Below the pieces are notes generated by a model. The model searched no databases, was not told the DNA's origin, and worked only from the letters and a program-made list of their open reading frames with translations. This document shows positions 5,404-59,141 of a stretch of DNA of 64,000 nt, one piece after another. The first letter of the stretch is position 1. Every line of letters begins with the position of its first letter. The stretch is from Anaeromyxobacter sp. Fw109-5. GTDB taxonomy: Bacteria > Myxococcota > Myxococcia > Myxococcales > Anaeromyxobacteraceae. The DNA lies in contig NC_009675.1 of assembly GCF_000017505.1 (NCBI RefSeq), positions 682,001 to 746,000 on the forward strand. The letters run 5' to 3'. The translations under genes and the position numbers were made by a program.

Positions 5404-6354
5404 ATGGCCGAGACGCGCGTGGAGCAGGTGGCGTTCGGGTGGGCGGGGGAGGGGACGACCGACACCGCGGAGCTGCCGCCCGAGGCTAGCCCCTCGACTT
5501 CGCCGCCGCTGCGCGGCGGCTACGCTCGGGGCGAACGGGTGGAAGGTCGCGCCTCGAACCGGAAGGTGCCCGCTCGCAGTTCGGCAGAGTCACCGCGGGC
5601 GGAGGCGCCGCGGGTCGACGCGCTGCCGCCCGACAACGAGCTCTGGGACGTCCACGCGGGCGTGCGATTCCTGAAGCGCAGCGTGAGCTGGGTCTACCAC
5701 CGCGCCGAGGACGGCACGCTGCCGGTGAAGCGCATCGGCGGTTGGCGGCTGCGATTCATCCCGGCGGAGCTGCGCGCCTGGGTCGAGGCGAGCGGCGAGC
5801 CGCGGCGAAAGGTGGCGAGGGGCAGCAAGGAGTATCCGATGGGCAGCGTCTACAAGCGTGGCCGGACTGGGTGGCTGAAGTACAAGGACGCGACCGGCAC
5901 GTTGAAGCCGGAGGCGACGAAGGCGGCGACCAAGACGGAAGCGAAGGCGCTCCTCCACGAGATAGAGCGGCGCGTCGAGCGCCAGCGGCTCGGGCCCGAG
6001 CCGATCTCGCTCAACCCGGAGGGATGGACGGTCGGCGACCTCCTGCAGTGGTGGCTCGACACGTACAGCCACCACTCGCCGTCGCACGAGAAGAACCTCG
6101 GGACCGTTCGCCGCCTGATCCTCGGGGCGCCGCTCGCGGAGAAGCCGCTCCAGCACGTCCAGCCGGGCGACGTCGAGCAGCTCCTCCAGGCAATGGAGGG
6201 CGAGGTTTCGGCGAGACCATCAACCACGTCCGCCAGTTCCTGGTCGGCGCGTTCAACCACGCGCGCGAGGCGGCGCTGCGACAGGACGACGGCCTCGATC
6301 GTGAGGATGCGACGGTGTTGGCGCGCGGTGCAGGCGCGGCGCCTGTCGCGCTAG
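5404..6354 (+). pseudogene. Tyrosine integrase, N-terminal half only (frameshifted and truncated)
   Basis: Residues about 80-125 form an excisionase-like helix-turn-helix (ELWDVHAGVRFLKRSVSWVYHR). Next come the arm-binding segment MGSVYKRGRTGWLKYKDATG and a core-binding helical domain (WTVGDLLQWWLDTYSHHSPSHEKNL...VEQLLQAME). At about 6205-6215 the reading frame slips: the expected continuation ETINHVRQFLVGAFNHARE is one frame over, and then the similarity ends. The catalytic domain with Arg, HxxR and Tyr is absent, so the gene is dead as an integrase. A hairpin repeat is inserted in frame at residues about 29-45. Confidence 0.7.
5489..5532 (+). repeat. REP-like hairpin repeat, copy inside the integrase frame
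   Basis: Inner stem GCCGCCGC (5502-5509), loop TGC and GCGGCGGC (5513-5520). Outer pairing GCCCC (5489-5493) with GGGGC (5528-5532). The flanking words CTCGACT and TACGCTCGGG are shared with the copy at 6469. The inner and outer stems differ between the two copies by compensating changes. Confidence 0.65.
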
Positions 6355-6874: not shown

Positions 6875-7018
6875 AAGGCGCGAAAGCGGTCGGGTTTCTA
6901 GCTTGAGCGGTCCCCCGTGTCAACGGTGTGGCACAGCCCCCGGCCGGCCCGGCGCGGGGCTCCGTCGTGCGGTAGTGAGGCTGGACCAGCCTGGGTACCG
7001 ATGGTAAGGGGCGGCTCG

Positions 7019-9718
7019 ATGGCTTGGAAAACGGGCACCAAGGTGATCCACCGCGCCCAGCGCGGCTGGGGCGTGGGCGTGATCGTGCAGGTCGCCGAGG
7101 AGGGCCGGCGGCTGGCGGTCCGGTTCGCCGGTCGCGAAGGGATCACGGTCGTGTCTGGCCGCGACTCCGCCCTGGTCGAGGTCCCGGCCGACACCCCGAT
7201 CGAGAAGGCGGCGGCCGGAGGGCCGCTCGACGCCCTCGCCTCGGGCGAGCAGGGGGCCGCCACCGCCTTCGCGCTGCGCACGCGCGTCTCCCGGCTGGAG
7301 GCGCTGCGGCGCGCGGACTCGCTCGGTGCGCTCCTCTCCTCGCGCGTCCACGTCCTCCCGCACCAGGTGGGCGCCGCGGGCCGCATCCTCTCCGATCGGC
7401 TGCCGCGCTTCGTCCTCGCCGACGAGGTCGGCCTCGGCAAGACGGTGGAGGCGGGCCTCGTCTTCGCCGGCATGCGCCAGCTCGGCATCGCCGAGCGCGT
7501 GCTCGTCGTCGTCCCCGAGCACCTCGCCTTCCAGTGGCTCGCGGAGCTCTTCCACAAGTTCAACGCGCTCTTCTCGCTCCTCACCCCCGAGCGCATCGCC
7601 GCGCTCGGAGGCGCCGAGGCCGCGCTCGCGCGGTCGCCGCACGCCATCGTCTCCTTCGAGGCGCTCCGCGACGACCCCGACCTCGCGGACGTCGCCGCCG
7701 ACATCCCCTTCGACCTGCTCGTGGTGGACGAGGCGCATCACCTCGCCGAGGACGCGCTCCACGCCGCCGTCGCCCCGCTCTGCCGCGCCGCCTACGGCGT
7801 GCTGCTCCTCACCGCGACGCCGGTGCGCCTCGACCCGCGCGAGTACTTCCGCCTGCTCTCGCTCGTGGAGCCGGTGCCCTCCACCACGCTCGACGAGTTC
7901 CTCGCCCGGCTCGAGCAGCACGAGGCCTACGCCGAGGTGGCGCGCACGCTCCTCGCCGGCGGCTCCGAGGCGGAGGCGCTCGGGGCGCTGCGCGCGCTCG
8001 CGCCCGGCGACGAGCTCTTCACGCGAGAGGACCCGGTCCCCGACCGGCTCACGCTCCTCGCCCACCTCGCCGACCGCTACAGCCTCTCCGCCCGGCTCAT
8101 CCGCAACCGCCGCGTGAAGGTCGGCGCGTTCACCTCGCGCGTGCTGCGCCGCAAGGACGTGGGGGAGGGGGAGAAGCGCGCCGCGCTCGTCGAGCTGTGC
8201 GCCCGGCTCGCGAAGGGCGGCGAGAAGGTGCTCGTGTTCGGCCACGACCTCGAGCTGCTCAGGGAGCTGCAGGCGGGCATCGGCGGCGAGGGGCTCGAGG
8301 CGCTGCTCTACGACGACGCGCCCTCGCTCGAGGGGCGCGACCGCCTCGTCGCGCGCTTCCGCGATCCGGAGGGGCCGATGGTCCTCCTCTCCGGCGAGTC
8401 CGGCGGCGAGGGCCGGAACTTCCAGTTCGCCTGCCAGCTCGTCTGCGCCGACCTGCCCGAGTCGCCGCTCGTGCTGGAGCAGCGCATCGGCCGGCTCGAC
8501 CGGCTCGGGCAGCACCGGCCCGTCGAGATCCACCTCGTGGTCGAGCCGGGGGAGGAGGCGTTCCTCGCCGACCTCTACGAGAAGGAGATCGGCATCTTCG
8601 AGGAGCCGGTGGGCGGCCTCGACGCAGTGCTCGCCTCGCTCCCGGAGGAGCTGGAGGCGCTGCGCCGCAAGCGGACCGACCGCACGCGCGAGGCCTTCCG
8701 CAAGGACCTCGCCGAGCGCGTCGCCACCGCCCGCCGGGCGCAGCACGAGGGCGACCCGCTCCTCGACATCCGCTCCGCCGCGCTCCCCGACCTCGCGCGC
8801 CTCGTCAAGGGCGCCTTCGGGCGCATGGGCGAGGAGGTCCCGGAGGGCATCGAGGGACCGCGCGTCTCGGGGGAGGCGGTGGAGCAGTCGCTGGTCACGC
8901 TCTCGCGCTGGCTCGAGGAGGAGCTCGAGGAGGTCACCACCGACGTCGGCCAGCGGATCGGCATGGAGGTGGACACCGACCAGAACGTCCACCCGTTCGA
9001 GGTCGCCTTCACGCTCGGCTCGGGCATGCGCATCGAGGCGCTCCCCGGGATGGAGATGCCGGAGGAGCCCGTCACGTACCTCGGCTCGTACTGGCGAGAG
9101 ACGGCGGTGGCGCGCGACGAGCTGCAGTGGTTCGCGACCGGGCACAAGCTGGTGGAGGCGCTCGTCGGCCTGGTGCGCGACGGCGACGCCGGCCGCTCCG
9201 CCGCGCTGAAGCGGGAGTGGGCGCCGCGCCGCGGCGGCCTGTACGTGCGCTTCGAGCCGCGGCTCGCCTCGAGCGCCGACCTCGCGCCCGGCGCGCGCGT
9301 GGCCTCCCGCCAGGCCTCGCGGTACCTGGATCTCTCTCCGGTCTCGGTGCTGGTGGAGCTCGAGCCGGGCCACCGCCACGTCGCGGGCGGCGCGCAGCGC
9401 GTCGAGGACGAGATCGAGGGGGTGCAGGACGCGAAGGTCGGTCCCGCCCCCGCCGCGCTCCTGCAGGCCGCCCGTGAGGCCGCCGAGAAGGAGGCCCTCG
9501 AGATCCTCGCGCGCCGCCGCGAGGAGGCCCACGAGCTGCTCGCGTTCCACGCCGACTACGAGGAGGAGCGGCTCATCGAGTCCGCCTTCCAGGGCGGCGC
9601 GCCGCGCGCCCGCATCGAGGCCGCGCTCCTCGTCCTCCGGCAGCACCGGGAGGTGGTCGGGCGGGCCATCGACAAGGCGAAGCTGGAGCTGGACGCGGCG
9701 GCGGTCGTGGTCCCGTAG
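7019..9718 (+). CDS. SNF2/RapA (HepA)-like ATP-dependent helicase
   Basis: An 899-residue protein. A small SH3-like N-terminus (WKTGTKVIHRAQRGWGVGVI) precedes a two-lobed helicase core: Walker A DEVGLGKTVEAG around residue 135, DEAH at 237-240, the LTATP motif, and motif VI QRIGRLDRLGQ at 488-498. A long C-terminal coiled and charged region follows. The layout resembles RapA, the RNA-polymerase-recycling ATPase, but the polymerase-contact domains cannot be verified by eye, so it could be another bacterial SNF2. The ATG at 7019 has AAGGGG upstream; an in-frame start at 6917 is less likely. It converges with the argE-like gene across the tandem repeat. Confidence 0.82.
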   Translation: MAWKTGTKVIHRAQRGWGVGVIVQVAEEGRRLAVRFAGREGITVVSGRDSALVEVPADTPIEKAAAGGPLDALASGEQGAATAFALRTRVSRLEALRRADSLGALLSSRVHVLPHQVGAAGRILSDRLPRFVLADEVGLGKTVEAGLVFAGMRQLGIAERVLVVVPEHLAFQWLAELFHKFNALFSLLTPERIAALGGAEAALARSPHAIVSFEALRDDPDLADVAADIPFDLLVVDEAHHLAEDALHAAVAPLCRAAYGVLLLTATPVRLDPREYFRLLSLVEPVPSTTLDEFLARLEQHEAYAEVARTLLAGGSEAEALGALRALAPGDELFTREDPVPDRLTLLAHLADRYSLSARLIRNRRVKVGAFTSRVLRRKDVGEGEKRAALVELCARLAKGGEKVLVFGHDLELLRELQAGIGGEGLEALLYDDAPSLEGRDRLVARFRDPEGPMVLLSGESGGEGRNFQFACQLVCADLPESPLVLEQRIGRLDRLGQHRPVEIHLVVEPGEEAFLADLYEKEIGIFEEPVGGLDAVLASLPEELEALRRKRTDRTREAFRKDLAERVATARRAQHEGDPLLDIRSAALPDLARLVKGAFGRMGEEVPEGIEGPRVSGEAVEQSLVTLSRWLEEELEEVTTDVGQRIGMEVDTDQNVHPFEVAFTLGSGMRIEALPGMEMPEEPVTYLGSYWRETAVARDELQWFATGHKLVEALVGLVRDGDAGRSAALKREWAPRRGGLYVRFEPRLASSADLAPGARVASRQASRYLDLSPVSVLVELEPGHRHVAGGAQRVEDEIEGVQDAKVGPAPAALLQAAREAAEKEALEILARRREEAHELLAFHADYEEERLIESAFQGGAPRARIEAALLVLRQHREVVGRAIDKAKLELDAAAVVVP

Positions 9719-9735
9719 CTCGGCGCACGATCCCT

Positions 9736-10167
9736 GCCTGCGACGGGCGGACTCCTCGCTGCGCGCCTGCGGCGTACAGAAGAGTACGCCTCGGCGCTTC
9801 GCTCGTCTTGCGCCCGTCTCGGCGACGGGCTCGTGCGCCTTGCGCCTGCGACGGGCGGACTCCTCGCTGCGCGCCTGCGGCGTACAGAAGAGTACGCCTC
9901 GGCGCTTCGCTCGTCTTGCGCCCGTCTCGGCGACGGGCTCGTGCGCCTTGCGCCTGCGACGGGCGGACTCCTCGCTGCGCGCCTGCGGCGTACAGAAGAG
10001 TACGCCTCGGCGCTTCGCTCGTCTTGCGCCCGTCTCGGCGACGGGCTCGTGCGCCTTGCGCCTGCGACGGGCGGACTCCTCGCTGCGCGCCTGCGGCGTA
10101 CAGAAGAGTACGCCTCGGCGCTTCGCTCGTCTTGCGCCCGTCTCGGCGACGGGCTCGTGCGCCTTGC
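9736..10167 (+). repeat. Four perfect tandem copies of a 108-bp unit with two hairpins each
   Basis: Units are 9736-9843, 9844-9951, 9952-10059 and 10060-10167. As read they are identical. Each holds two perfect hairpins. In unit 1 these are GGCGTAC-AGAAGA-GTACGCC (9771-9790) and GCCCGTC-TCGGC-GACGGGC (9812-9830). The array fills nearly the whole gap between two convergent genes (stops at 9718 and 10189). Because 108 is divisible by three, all frames stay open, but no ribosome site or plausible protein is seen. No T-run follows the stems. Confidence 0.95.
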
Positions 10168-10188
10168 GGTACGAAGAGACGCGGCCCG

Positions 10189-11304
10189 CTACCCGCAGAA
10201 CCGCTCGATCGCCCGCGTCAGGATGGCCGCCGCCTGCTCGAGCTGCGCGACCTCCACGTACTCGCCCGTGCGGTGCGCCACGCGGATGTCGCCGGGGCCG
10301 AACACGCAGGCCTCCGCGCCGAGGCCGATGACCTCGGGGAGCTCGGTGCCGAACGGCACCGTGGTCGCGGCGTTCCCGCTCTCGGCCTGGAGGAAGCGGA
10401 CGATCTCCGCCTCCGCGGGGGTGACCGCCGCGGCGTCGGTGCGGAGCGGCGTGACCTCCACCTGCACCCGCCCGCCGCTCGACGCGGCGAGCCGCGCGCA
10501 CGCGTCCTCGAGGAGCCGGAGGGCCTTGCGCGGATCCTGGCCGGGGATGGGCCGCCACTCGTAGGTGAAGCGGCACTCGCCCGCGATGATGTTCCGGGCC
10601 TTGCCGCCCTGGATGACGCCCACGTTCCAGGTGGTGTGCGGCGGCGAGAAGGCGCCGTCGGACTCGCCGCGGAGCGCCTCGCCGATCTTCTCGAGCTCCG
10701 GGAAGAGCCTCCCTGCCGCGTGGATCGCGGAGGCGCCGACCTCCGGGTAGGCGCTGTGCCCCTCGAGCCCGGTGAGCACCACCTCCACCGCGCAGTAGCC
10801 CTTGTGCGCGCGCACCGGCGTGAGCGACGTCGGCTCGCCCACGATGGCGTGGCGCGGGTGGACGCGACCCTCGGCGAGGAGCCGCTTCGCGCCGAGGCAG
10901 CCGATCTCCTCGTCCGCGGTGAAGAGGAGCGTGAGCGGCAGCCGCGCGGGCCGCGAGCGGGAGGCGGCGACGAGCGCGGCGGCGAGGAAGCCCTTCGTGT
11001 CGGCCGCGCCGCGCCCGTAGATGCGCCCGTCGCGCTCCGCGCCCGTGAGCGCCTCCTCCCAGGCCGGATCGAACGGCACGCAGTCCGAGTGGCCGACGAG
11101 CGCGAGCCCGCCGCCCGCCTCGGGGCCGCGCCGGCACACGAGGTTGCCCTTCTCGACGCCGCTCGCGTCGAGCCAGCTCTGGCGGCGGGTCTCGAACCCC
11201 AGCGCCCGCGCGTCGCGCTCGAGCAGGTCGAGCACCGGCAGGTTGGAGCGCGTGGAGGTGGAGTCGATCGCGATGAGGGACCGGAGGAGCGGGACGAGTT
11301 CCAT
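10189..11304 (-). CDS. argE: M20-family deacetylase, acetylornithine deacetylase-like (ArgE)
   Basis: A 371-residue M20 metallopeptidase-fold enzyme. Zinc-site landmarks are GHSDCVPFD near residue 70, GRGAADTKGFLAA near 100 and FTADEEIGCLGAKRL near 130; the lid domain has GLEGHSAYPEVG. Family members remove acetyl or succinyl groups from amino acids; ArgE yields ornithine. Because this genome also has the acetyl-recycling ArgJ, ArgE activity may be redundant and the true substrate could be another N-acyl amino acid. The ATG at 11304 (MELVPLLRSL) fits the usual family start; an upstream ATG at 11358 would add 18 residues. Confidence 0.75.
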   Translation of the reverse strand: MELVPLLRSLIAIDSTSTRSNLPVLDLLERDARALGFETRRQSWLDASGVEKGNLVCRRGPEAGGGLALVGHSDCVPFDPAWEEALTGAERDGRIYGRGAADTKGFLAAALVAASRSRPARLPLTLLFTADEEIGCLGAKRLLAEGRVHPRHAIVGEPTSLTPVRAHKGYCAVEVVLTGLEGHSAYPEVGASAIHAAGRLFPELEKIGEALRGESDGAFSPPHTTWNVGVIQGGKARNIIAGECRFTYEWRPIPGQDPRKALRLLEDACARLAASSGGRVQVEVTPLRTDAAAVTPAEAEIVRFLQAESGNAATTVPFGTELPEVIGLGAEACVFGPGDIRVAHRTGEYVEVAQLEQAAAILTRAIERFCG

Positions 11305-11362
11305 GGGAGGGGAGCCTAGACGAGGCGCGAGCGTCGCGCCGTCCTTCTCGCGGCGCATGGGG

Positions 11363-56864: not shown

Positions 56865-59141
56865 ATGGGCGTCTCCGAAGAGATCCGCAAGAAGCTCCTC
56901 CCCCGGTTCCGCGAGACCACCGCGGACCGGGTGGAGAAGATCTCGAGCGCGCTGCTCGAGCTCGAGCGCGGCGCCGGCTCCCCCGAGGCGCTCGACGAGC
57001 TCGCGCGCGAGCTGCACACGCTGAAGGGCGAGGCCCGCATGATGGGCTTCGTCGGGATCTCCAGCGTGGTGCACGCGGCGGAGGACCTGCTCAAGGCGCT
57101 GCCGCAGGCGAGCCCCGGCGAGCGGCTGGACGCGCTGCTCAAGGCGTGCGGCGCGCTCGTCCCCATGCTCGACGCCCCGGTGGACGGCGGCGACGCCGCG
57201 GGCAGGCTCACGGAGTCGCTGCGCGCATTGATCGCGACACCGGCCGGATCACCCGAGGCCAGTCACCCTGAGCGTGGCGACGCGGCGACAGCCGCGGAGC
57301 GAAGTCGAAAGGCCTCGACCCCGACCCCGACCCCGACCGCGACCTCGACCTCGACCGCGACCGCGCCGTCACCCCCGTCCCCCTCGCCGCAGGCCCCCCG
57401 CCCCGACTCCCGCATGGAGCTGCGCGGCGAGAAGCCCGCCGCCTCCATCCGCGTGGACGTGGACCGGCTCGACGAGATCGCCGCGCTCGCCGGGGACGTG
57501 CTGGTGGAGGGCGAGCGGGCCATCCGGCGCTCGCGGGACCTGAACGCGCTCTTCGCGCGCTGGGGCCGGCTCTCCGACCGCGTGATCGCGCTCGCGGAGC
57601 GGCTGCGCGACGCGCGCACCGCCCGGCTCGTCGAGCAGATCGAGGGGGACGTCCACCTCCTCCGCTCCGACACCTTCCGCTTCTCGCGCGCGCAGAGCGA
57701 GGCGGCGTCCTCGTCGCAGGCCCAGTTCGGGCGCCTCGCCGAGCGGATCGGGGAGGCGCGGCTCATCCCGCTCTCGGGCGTGCTCGCCGCGTTCCCCCTC
57801 GCGGTCCGCGACATGGCGCGCGAGCAGGGGAAGGAGGTCGAGTGCGTGGTGCGCGGCGGAGAGACGGGGGTCGACAAGGCCATCCTGCTCTCCCTCAACG
57901 ACCCGCTCGTGCACCTCGTCCGCAACTCGGTCGACCACGGCCTGGAGGCGCCCGGCGAGCGCGCGCAGGCGGGCAAGCCGCGCGCCGGGAGGATCGTGAT
58001 CTCCGCGCGCGTGGACGGCGACCTGCTCGCGGTCACCGTCGAGGACGACGGCCGCGGCATCGAGGCCCCGAAGGTCCGCGCCGCCGCCCTGCGCAAGGGG
58101 ATCATCGGCGAGCAGCAGGCGGCGAGCCTGTCGGCGCGGTCGGCGCTCGACCTCATCTTCATGCCCGGGTTCTCGACGCGCGAGCAGGCGGGCGAGACGA
58201 GCGGGCGCGGCGTCGGCCTGGACGTGGTGCGCAAGCGCGTCACGGCGCTGGGCGGCTCCGTCACGGTCGACTCCGAGCCGGGCAAGGGCACGCGCTTCAC
58301 GCTGCGCATGCCGCAGTCGCTCTCGCTCATGAAGGTCCTCCTCGTCCGCATCGACGAGGACGTCTACGGCATCCCGGCGGTGGACGTGGACAGCGTGGGC
58401 CGCCTCGATCCCAAGGACGCCACGGAGGTCGCCGGCATCCGCGCCGTGCGCTACCGCGGACGGCTCCTGCCCGTCGTGGCGCTCGGCCCGCTGCTCTCGC
58501 TCAACGGCGGTCCGCGCTCGAAGCGGCCGCTCGTCGCCTACGTCATCCACGGAAACGAGGGCGCGGCCGTCGTCGTGGACGGCCTGCACGGCGAGCGCGA
58601 GGTCGCGGTGAAGGCGCCCGGCGCCTTCCTAAAGGGGATGCGCTTCGTCACGGGGGCGGCGGCGCTCGAGGACGGCCGGGTGGCGCTGCTCCTCTCCACC
58701 CCGGACATCGTCGCCGCGGCGCGGCGGCTCGCGTCCCCGGCGATGTCGCGCGGGCGCGACCGGCGCAGGCTGCGCGTGCTCCTCGTCGACGACAGCGCCA
58801 TCGCGCGCGAGGCCGAGGCCGCGCTGCTCCGCTCGCTCGGCCACGAGGTCGAGGAGGCCGTGGACGGCGAGGACGGCTGGCGGAAGCTGCAGGCCGGCAG
58901 CTACCAGCTCCTCGTCACCGACGTGCAGATGCCGGTGCTCGACGGGATCGACCTCACCCGCCGCGTCAAGGCGACGCCGCGCTTCCTGAAGCTCCCGATC
59001 GTGATCATGTCCTCGCTCTCCGCGCCCGAGGAGCGGCGCCGGGGCGTCGACGCGGGCGCGGACGCGTACATCGTCAAGGGGGAGCTCGAGGCGGAGAGCC
59101 TCGCCGCCACCCTCGAGCGGCTGTGCGGGGTCGGCGCGTGA
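56865..59141 (+). CDS. frzE: CheA-CheY fusion histidine kinase, FrzE-like
   Basis: A 758-residue fusion. The Hpt domain has H51 in ELHTLKGEARMMGF (H49 in M. xanthus FrzE). The linker (residues about 110-185) includes a hairpin repeat and a Thr/Pro-rich run. The dimerisation and ATPase domains have HLVRNSVDHGLE, DDGRGIE and GRGVGLDVV; a CheW-like domain follows, then a C-terminal receiver with D686 (LLVTDVQMPVLDG). In M. xanthus the receiver inhibits the kinase. The start at 56865 has GAAAGG upstream. Confidence 0.9.
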   Translation: MGVSEEIRKKLLPRFRETTADRVEKISSALLELERGAGSPEALDELARELHTLKGEARMMGFVGISSVVHAAEDLLKALPQASPGERLDALLKACGALVPMLDAPVDGGDAAGRLTESLRALIATPAGSPEASHPERGDAATAAERSRKASTPTPTPTATSTSTATAPSPPSPSPQAPRPDSRMELRGEKPAASIRVDVDRLDEIAALAGDVLVEGERAIRRSRDLNALFARWGRLSDRVIALAERLRDARTARLVEQIEGDVHLLRSDTFRFSRAQSEAASSSQAQFGRLAERIGEARLIPLSGVLAAFPLAVRDMAREQGKEVECVVRGGETGVDKAILLSLNDPLVHLVRNSVDHGLEAPGERAQAGKPRAGRIVISARVDGDLLAVTVEDDGRGIEAPKVRAAALRKGIIGEQQAASLSARSALDLIFMPGFSTREQAGETSGRGVGLDVVRKRVTALGGSVTVDSEPGKGTRFTLRMPQSLSLMKVLLVRIDEDVYGIPAVDVDSVGRLDPKDATEVAGIRAVRYRGRLLPVVALGPLLSLNGGPRSKRPLVAYVIHGNEGAAVVVDGLHGEREVAVKAPGAFLKGMRFVTGAAALEDGRVALLLSTPDIVAAARRLASPAMSRGRDRRRLRVLLVDDSAIAREAEAALLRSLGHEVEEAVDGEDGWRKLQAGSYQLLVTDVQMPVLDGIDLTRRVKATPRFLKLPIVIMSSLSAPEERRRGVDAGADAYIVKGELEAESLAATLERLCGVGA
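57266..57312 (-). repeat. REP-like hairpin repeat inside the frzE linker
   Basis: Minus-strand copy of the repeat family at 5489 and 6469. CCCTGAGCG and GAAGTCGAAAGG flank an inner stem, CGCGGC (57281-57286) with GCCGCG (57291-57296). It reads in frame in frzE (residues about 134-149) and precedes a Thr/Pro-rich codon repeat. Confidence 0.6.

Follow-up and report, generated by a model that had tools for sequence, protein, structure and literature searches.

A four-unit tandem array in Anaeromyxobacter sp. Fw109-5, probably derived from one copy of a dispersed palindromic intergenic repeat

Among the small palindromic repeats described in bacteria, the ERIC or IRU elements are 127-bp enterobacterial palindromes, which are intergenic, strongly variable in copy number and placed beside genes in an orientation-dependent manner (PMC2229807, PMC10969869). 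Their effect on mRNA stability also depends on orientation (PMC2229807). REPs favour convergent and downstream positions, and REPs of the GTAG type often supply the TAG stop codon of a neighbouring gene (PMC3733652). REPINs that are nearly identical occur in ordered tandem clusters (PMC3116915), and insertion of one repeat into another is known for the small palindromic BOX, RUP and SPRITE elements of pneumococcus (PMC10969869). The tandem array reported here is best explained, with a probability of about 0.75, as the product of tandem multiplication of one copy of a MITE/REP/ERIC-like palindromic intergenic repeat that is dispersed in Anaeromyxobacter and related myxobacteria. The multiplication was local and probably recent.

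The array lies in a window of 64 000 nucleotides, positions 682001–746000 of the single 5,277,990 bp contig of the genome. Positions 9736–10167 form one perfect tandem array with a period of 108, 4.0 copies and 100 per cent matches (TRF, range 9736–10168). A search of the whole contig placed the unit at four sites with 108/108 identity and at no other exact one, and a chance origin of four exact 108-bp copies is excluded. With a 17-bp left arm, the array occupies 449 of the 470 bp between the stop of a RapA-like gene (ends at 9718) and that of a convergent argE-like gene (starts at 10189). The first-pass annotation had described four identical 108-bp tandem units that nearly fill this gap, had taken their identity as a sign of recent or maintained amplification and had set them apart from CRISPR; the units, a recent amplification and the distinction from CRISPR agree with the present data. 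A CRISPR array is rejected, as the period equals the unit length and the units have no spacers. A coding repeat is rejected as well: the array is open in several frames, which is attributed to high GC, and no gene is called within it on codon usage. The features of the locus are as follows.

6917–9718, + strand: SNF2/RapA_C helicase gene (Pfam PF12137, PF00176; gene-caller start 7043)
9719–9735, + strand: left part of the palindrome, CTCGGCGCACGATCCCT, a single occurrence (alignment of 32 copies, consensus structure)
9722–9730, + strand: left arm of helix 1, GGCGCACGA, which occurs once in the array
9736–9843, + strand: unit 1, which with 9719–9735 makes the only complete palindrome of the array
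9742–9748 and 9812–9818, + strand: inner arms of unit 1, GACGGGC and GCCCGTC (consensus structure)
9771–9777 and 9784–9790, + strand: apical stem of unit 1, GGCGTAC and GTACGCC, conserved
9831–9839, + strand: right arm of unit 1, TCGTGCGCC, which recurs in all units
9844–9951, + strand: unit 2, identical, without the left arm
9952–10059, + strand: unit 3, identical, without the left arm
10060–10167, + strand: unit 4, identical, without the left arm
10189–11358, − strand: M20 peptidase (argE-like) gene (Pfam PF01546, PF07687; gene-caller start 11304)

The TAG stop codon of the RapA-like gene (9716–9718) adjoins the element directly, and the argE-like stop codon lies 21 bp to the right of the array. 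The whole genus has a RapA-like orthologue, and in seven of eight congeners its convergent neighbour is the same. A reading frame at 5404–6354 of the window, which immediately precedes the RapA-like gene, resembles by eye the N-terminal part of a phage-type integrase and is apparently frameshifted or truncated. Other tandem repeats in this genome are hexanucleotide arrays: a short one of CGACCC with about eight units at 57316–57362 of the window, and arrays of the GGTCGA/CGACCG type with up to 47 units elsewhere (L014:2824–3108 and L015:651–856).

The 108-bp unit is most of one nested palindrome of about 122 bp rather than a self-contained element with two hairpins. This imperfect palindrome begins at 9719, directly after the RapA-like stop and 17 bp to the left of the start given by the first-pass annotation, and consists of CTCGGCGCACGATCCCT followed by the unit; the covariance model matches it at 9719–9840 with 119 bits. 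The outer arms GGCGCACGA and TCGTGCGCC, the inner arms around GACGGGC/GCCCGTC and the apical stem GGCGTAC/GTACGCC are nested in one hairpin. The two perfect hairpins previously proposed for each unit fare differently: the apical stem is real and conserved, whereas the local pairing of GCCCGTC with a downstream GACGGGC exists in the letters only. It is no feature of the family, since the downstream partner is missing in many members, while the pairing of GCCCGTC (9812–9818) with the upstream GACGGGC (9742–9748) is kept throughout. A single 108-bp unit on its own exceeds shuffled sequences in folding on the − strand (z −3.17) but not on the + strand (z −0.98).

Covariation across homologues had been named beforehand as a check on the stems. 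In an alignment of 32 copies (31 distinct), 98.1 per cent of the pairing cells are compatible with the structure, 15 of 31 pairs show two-sided, compensatory changes and the covariation score is 0.283. Shuffled controls give means of 88.2 per cent, 6.6 pairs and 0.100, a comparison inflated by related sequences; slid-structure controls reach at most 48 per cent, five pairs and 0.084. The structure itself was derived from the same alignment, but on the strength of this effect size, and of pairs such as columns 28/106 (CG, AU, GC) and 36/97 (AU, CG, GC), it is very likely that the pairing of one long-range hairpin has been maintained.

The same genome contains about 18 further copies, about 72–81 per cent identical over the whole unit; they are non-tandem, and none forms a four-unit array. 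The search of related genomes, also suggested beforehand, found the family in all nine genomes of the genus. The covariance model gives 22 matches in this genome, the array included, and 18, 1, 1, 52, 22, 3, 6 and 41 in the eight congeners. A nucleotide search of 117 genomes of the order found matches in 31, which belong to several families. About 85,000 species were covered by a pattern scan, whose hits outside the group the covariance model mostly assigns to chance; five loci (L116, L131, L136, L168 and L180), from records that do not carry the name Anaeromyxobacter, are convincing. Neither the window region, searched to E 1, nor nine related loci, searched to E 0.1, match any Rfam model, and a known RNA family is rejected. 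The open-licence papers searched on palindromic repeats in Anaeromyxobacter or Myxococcales do not describe the family. The repeat family, found in neither Rfam nor the searched literature, is a new one, and its kind is that of the known small bacterial palindromic repeats.

Two subtypes can be distinguished: subtype A, to which the copy in the window belongs, and the longer subtype B, which has extra outer arms of about 25 nt. To establish the gene context, 404 kb of this genome were annotated by a gene caller that uses codon usage. The seven subtype A copies found there always have the left arm on the side of the upstream stop, at 0, −1, 0, 0, 4, 12 and 77 bp, and five of them lie in convergent gaps. 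Of the intergenic bases, 7.8 per cent lie within 12 bp of a stop (P 1.5e-6) and 21 per cent in convergent gaps (P 0.006). Of the 17 subtype A sites that remain when other genomes are pooled and two orthologous pairs removed, 15 have the left arm 0–12 bp after a stop (P about 3e-15 under uniform intergenic insertion), and most sites lie in convergent gaps. As these nulls all assume uniform insertion in intergenic DNA, the bias may reflect target choice or selection. The element did not supply the stop of the RapA-like gene, since orthologues that lack the element have a TAG or TGA at the same position.

The strong covariation and the exact adjacency to stop codons could indicate a selected function instead, which would speak against the main reading. 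Such a function might act at the RNA level: on both strands the element would form a hairpin at the 3' end and thereby terminate or protect the two convergent transcripts, and the array would strengthen it. The maintained pairing and the position after stops fit this proposal, and so do the wobble pairs of the core, which suit the strand transcribed from the upstream gene in 53 cells versus 3. However, one pair accounts for 29 of these 53 cells, and in subtype B the outer arms lean to the opposite strand; the asymmetry is suggestive of RNA rather than DNA as the selected molecule for the core only, and the outer arms contradict it. Units 2–4 also lack the left arm. The bidirectional terminator of the first-pass annotation finds no support in its canonical form: no G+C-rich hairpin followed by a T run is present on either strand in 9600–10300, and a canonical intrinsic (rho-independent) terminator is rejected.

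The orthologous rapA/argE gap bears on the same proposal. Only the first 37 bp or so of the element are kept in the sister species A. soli, and the gap is bare, at 32 bp, in G001. Four other genomes (G002, G003, G004 and G006) have a different palindrome there, with arms resembling CCCTTCGACTCC and GGAGTCGAAGGG. Several other species thus have a palindrome of another kind in this very gap, as an RNA-level function might lead one to expect. Neither the array nor its hairpin is required at this place, however, since relatives have a truncated element, other palindromes or nothing. Taken together, an RNA-level function as the reason for the array seems unlikely, though by no means negligible. This second, unrelated palindromic repeat, of the CCCTTCGACTCC...GGAGTCGAAGGG type, is the one in the rapA/argE gap of L051, L052, L054 and L055.

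For the array itself, local multiplication of a single copy remains our preferred reading. An ancestral copy would have been present in this convergent gap, where its insertion was harmless to both genes. Replication slippage or illegitimate recombination at the hairpin would then have doubled the segment from 9736 to just past the right arm, and recombination between copies would have expanded it to four exact copies. This segment, which excludes the left arm, begins at the inner helix base. By inspection, the breakpoints share at most 1 bp of homology, which would fit slippage or end-joining at the hairpin followed by recombination between copies. If the two transcripts are ended or stabilised by the array, this would be incidental and would not explain why the array exists. 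In A. terrae, adjacent family copies at the end of a contig are 99 per cent identical with a period of 142 bp, and adjacent diverged copies occur as two in L221, two in L222 and three in L227. As these have other spacings, tandem duplication is recurrent in the family, with differing breakpoints.

These adjacent copies in other assemblies, one pair being 99 per cent identical, also argue against an assembly artefact, which would have either repeated a single copy by mistake or shortened a longer array to four units. The exact identity of the units is what such an error would produce, but the genome is a single contig and 432 bp fit within one Sanger-length read; we regard an artefact as extremely improbable. 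Hardly more credible is an array that binds a protein as DNA, in the way suggested for some REP/BIME elements, with gyrase or a nucleoid protein as examples. The unpaired motifs GCCTGCG and CTCGGC are invariant in all or nearly all copies, as binding sites might be; yet the copies are otherwise solitary, so that an array is not needed.

Evidence for mobility comes from subtype B, which has clean empty sites in relatives and a 3-bp target duplication, TGA or TCA: TCA at L250, TGA at L244 and TGA at L230, where G006 is empty and G002 filled. Further TGA/TGA and TCA/TCA flanks are visible, and often it is a gene's own stop codon that forms the duplicated TGA. Judged from these site comparisons, subtype B is demonstrably a mobile insertion. 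For subtype A, no target duplication is demonstrable at the compared sites, which are old and degraded. One of them has a full copy in A. terrae and a degraded copy in A. soli; the other has a truncated copy in A. terrae and none in A. soli. The subtype A sites look older.

Searches with the arms in G000, G004 and G001 revealed no transposase with matching ends among the matches listed. Pairs of outer arms 1.5–2 kb apart enclose HNH reading frames in the hairpin loop, and no transposase. The RAYT family (PF01797) gives weak matches in eight of nine genomes, including those with almost no copies of the element, and element copies near eight RAYT-like genes amount to one chance-level match. A RAYT-driven REP is rejected because linkage to RAYT is absent.

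The apical loop of the core contains palindromes of the CCCTTCGACTCC type in L222, L227, L315 and L316, and a related one in L015. At four loci it contains a unit of 1.2–1.9 kb with an HNH-nuclease frame.

L220:1474–3348 (G005:C78): HNH unit in the apical loop (PF01844)
L305, L306 and L307 (G004:C121, C139 and C89): HNH units in the apical loop (PF01844)

The HNH family has 7–34 matches per genome in the genus, many flanked by inverted repeats of 80–180 bp. A regular hairpin target for HNH units is unsupported, with recognisable ends in three copies and P 0.02 in one. The outer arms of subtype B also occur without the core, as palindromes of about 55 bp (L309, at G000:C1:1002138–1002192, L308, L310 and L312), as if the core had inserted in their loop. 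This arrangement suggests that palindromes insert into palindromes. A layered system could be imagined in which the palindromes of about 55 bp surround the 122-bp core, whose loop in turn takes up a second palindrome family or an inverted-repeat HNH unit, loops and TGA stops being the targets and the HNH protein replacing RAYT as mobility enzyme; we consider this scheme quite unlikely.

The clean empty sites and TGA/TCA insertions of subtype B form a natural set of sites for testing whether a palindrome affects transcript 3' ends in GC-rich bacteria. The sites of the family also bear on how hairpins cause tandem duplication, a process of which the array is mainly an example.

Compared by description, the family resembles ERIC/IRU in length, imperfect palindrome, intergenic site, variable copy number and orientation-dependent position; it differs in belonging to other bacteria, in lacking the TA ends of ERIC and in the TGA/TCA target duplication of its subtype B. 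With the BOX, RUP and SPRITE repeats, again compared by description, it has in common the other palindromes and HNH units in its apical loop, but phylum and structure are different. Like MITEs, including Correia/NEMIS, it is short and non-coding (no gene is called in the element) and has terminal inverted repeats, and subtype B alone adds target duplications with clean empty sites; unlike in MITEs, an autonomous partner was not found and subtype A has no demonstrable target duplication. The family recalls REP, REPIN and BIME elements in placing its palindromes behind genes and between convergent ones, and the tandem units recall the ordered clusters of REPINs. The element measures about 122 bp, however, against 20–40 bp for a REP unit (the separate outer palindromes of about 55 bp are nearer), and in contrast to GTAG REPs the RapA-like stop exists in orthologues without it. 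As a linked RAYT transposase is absent and the unit is too long, we file the family as MITE/REP-like rather than as REP/REPIN proper.
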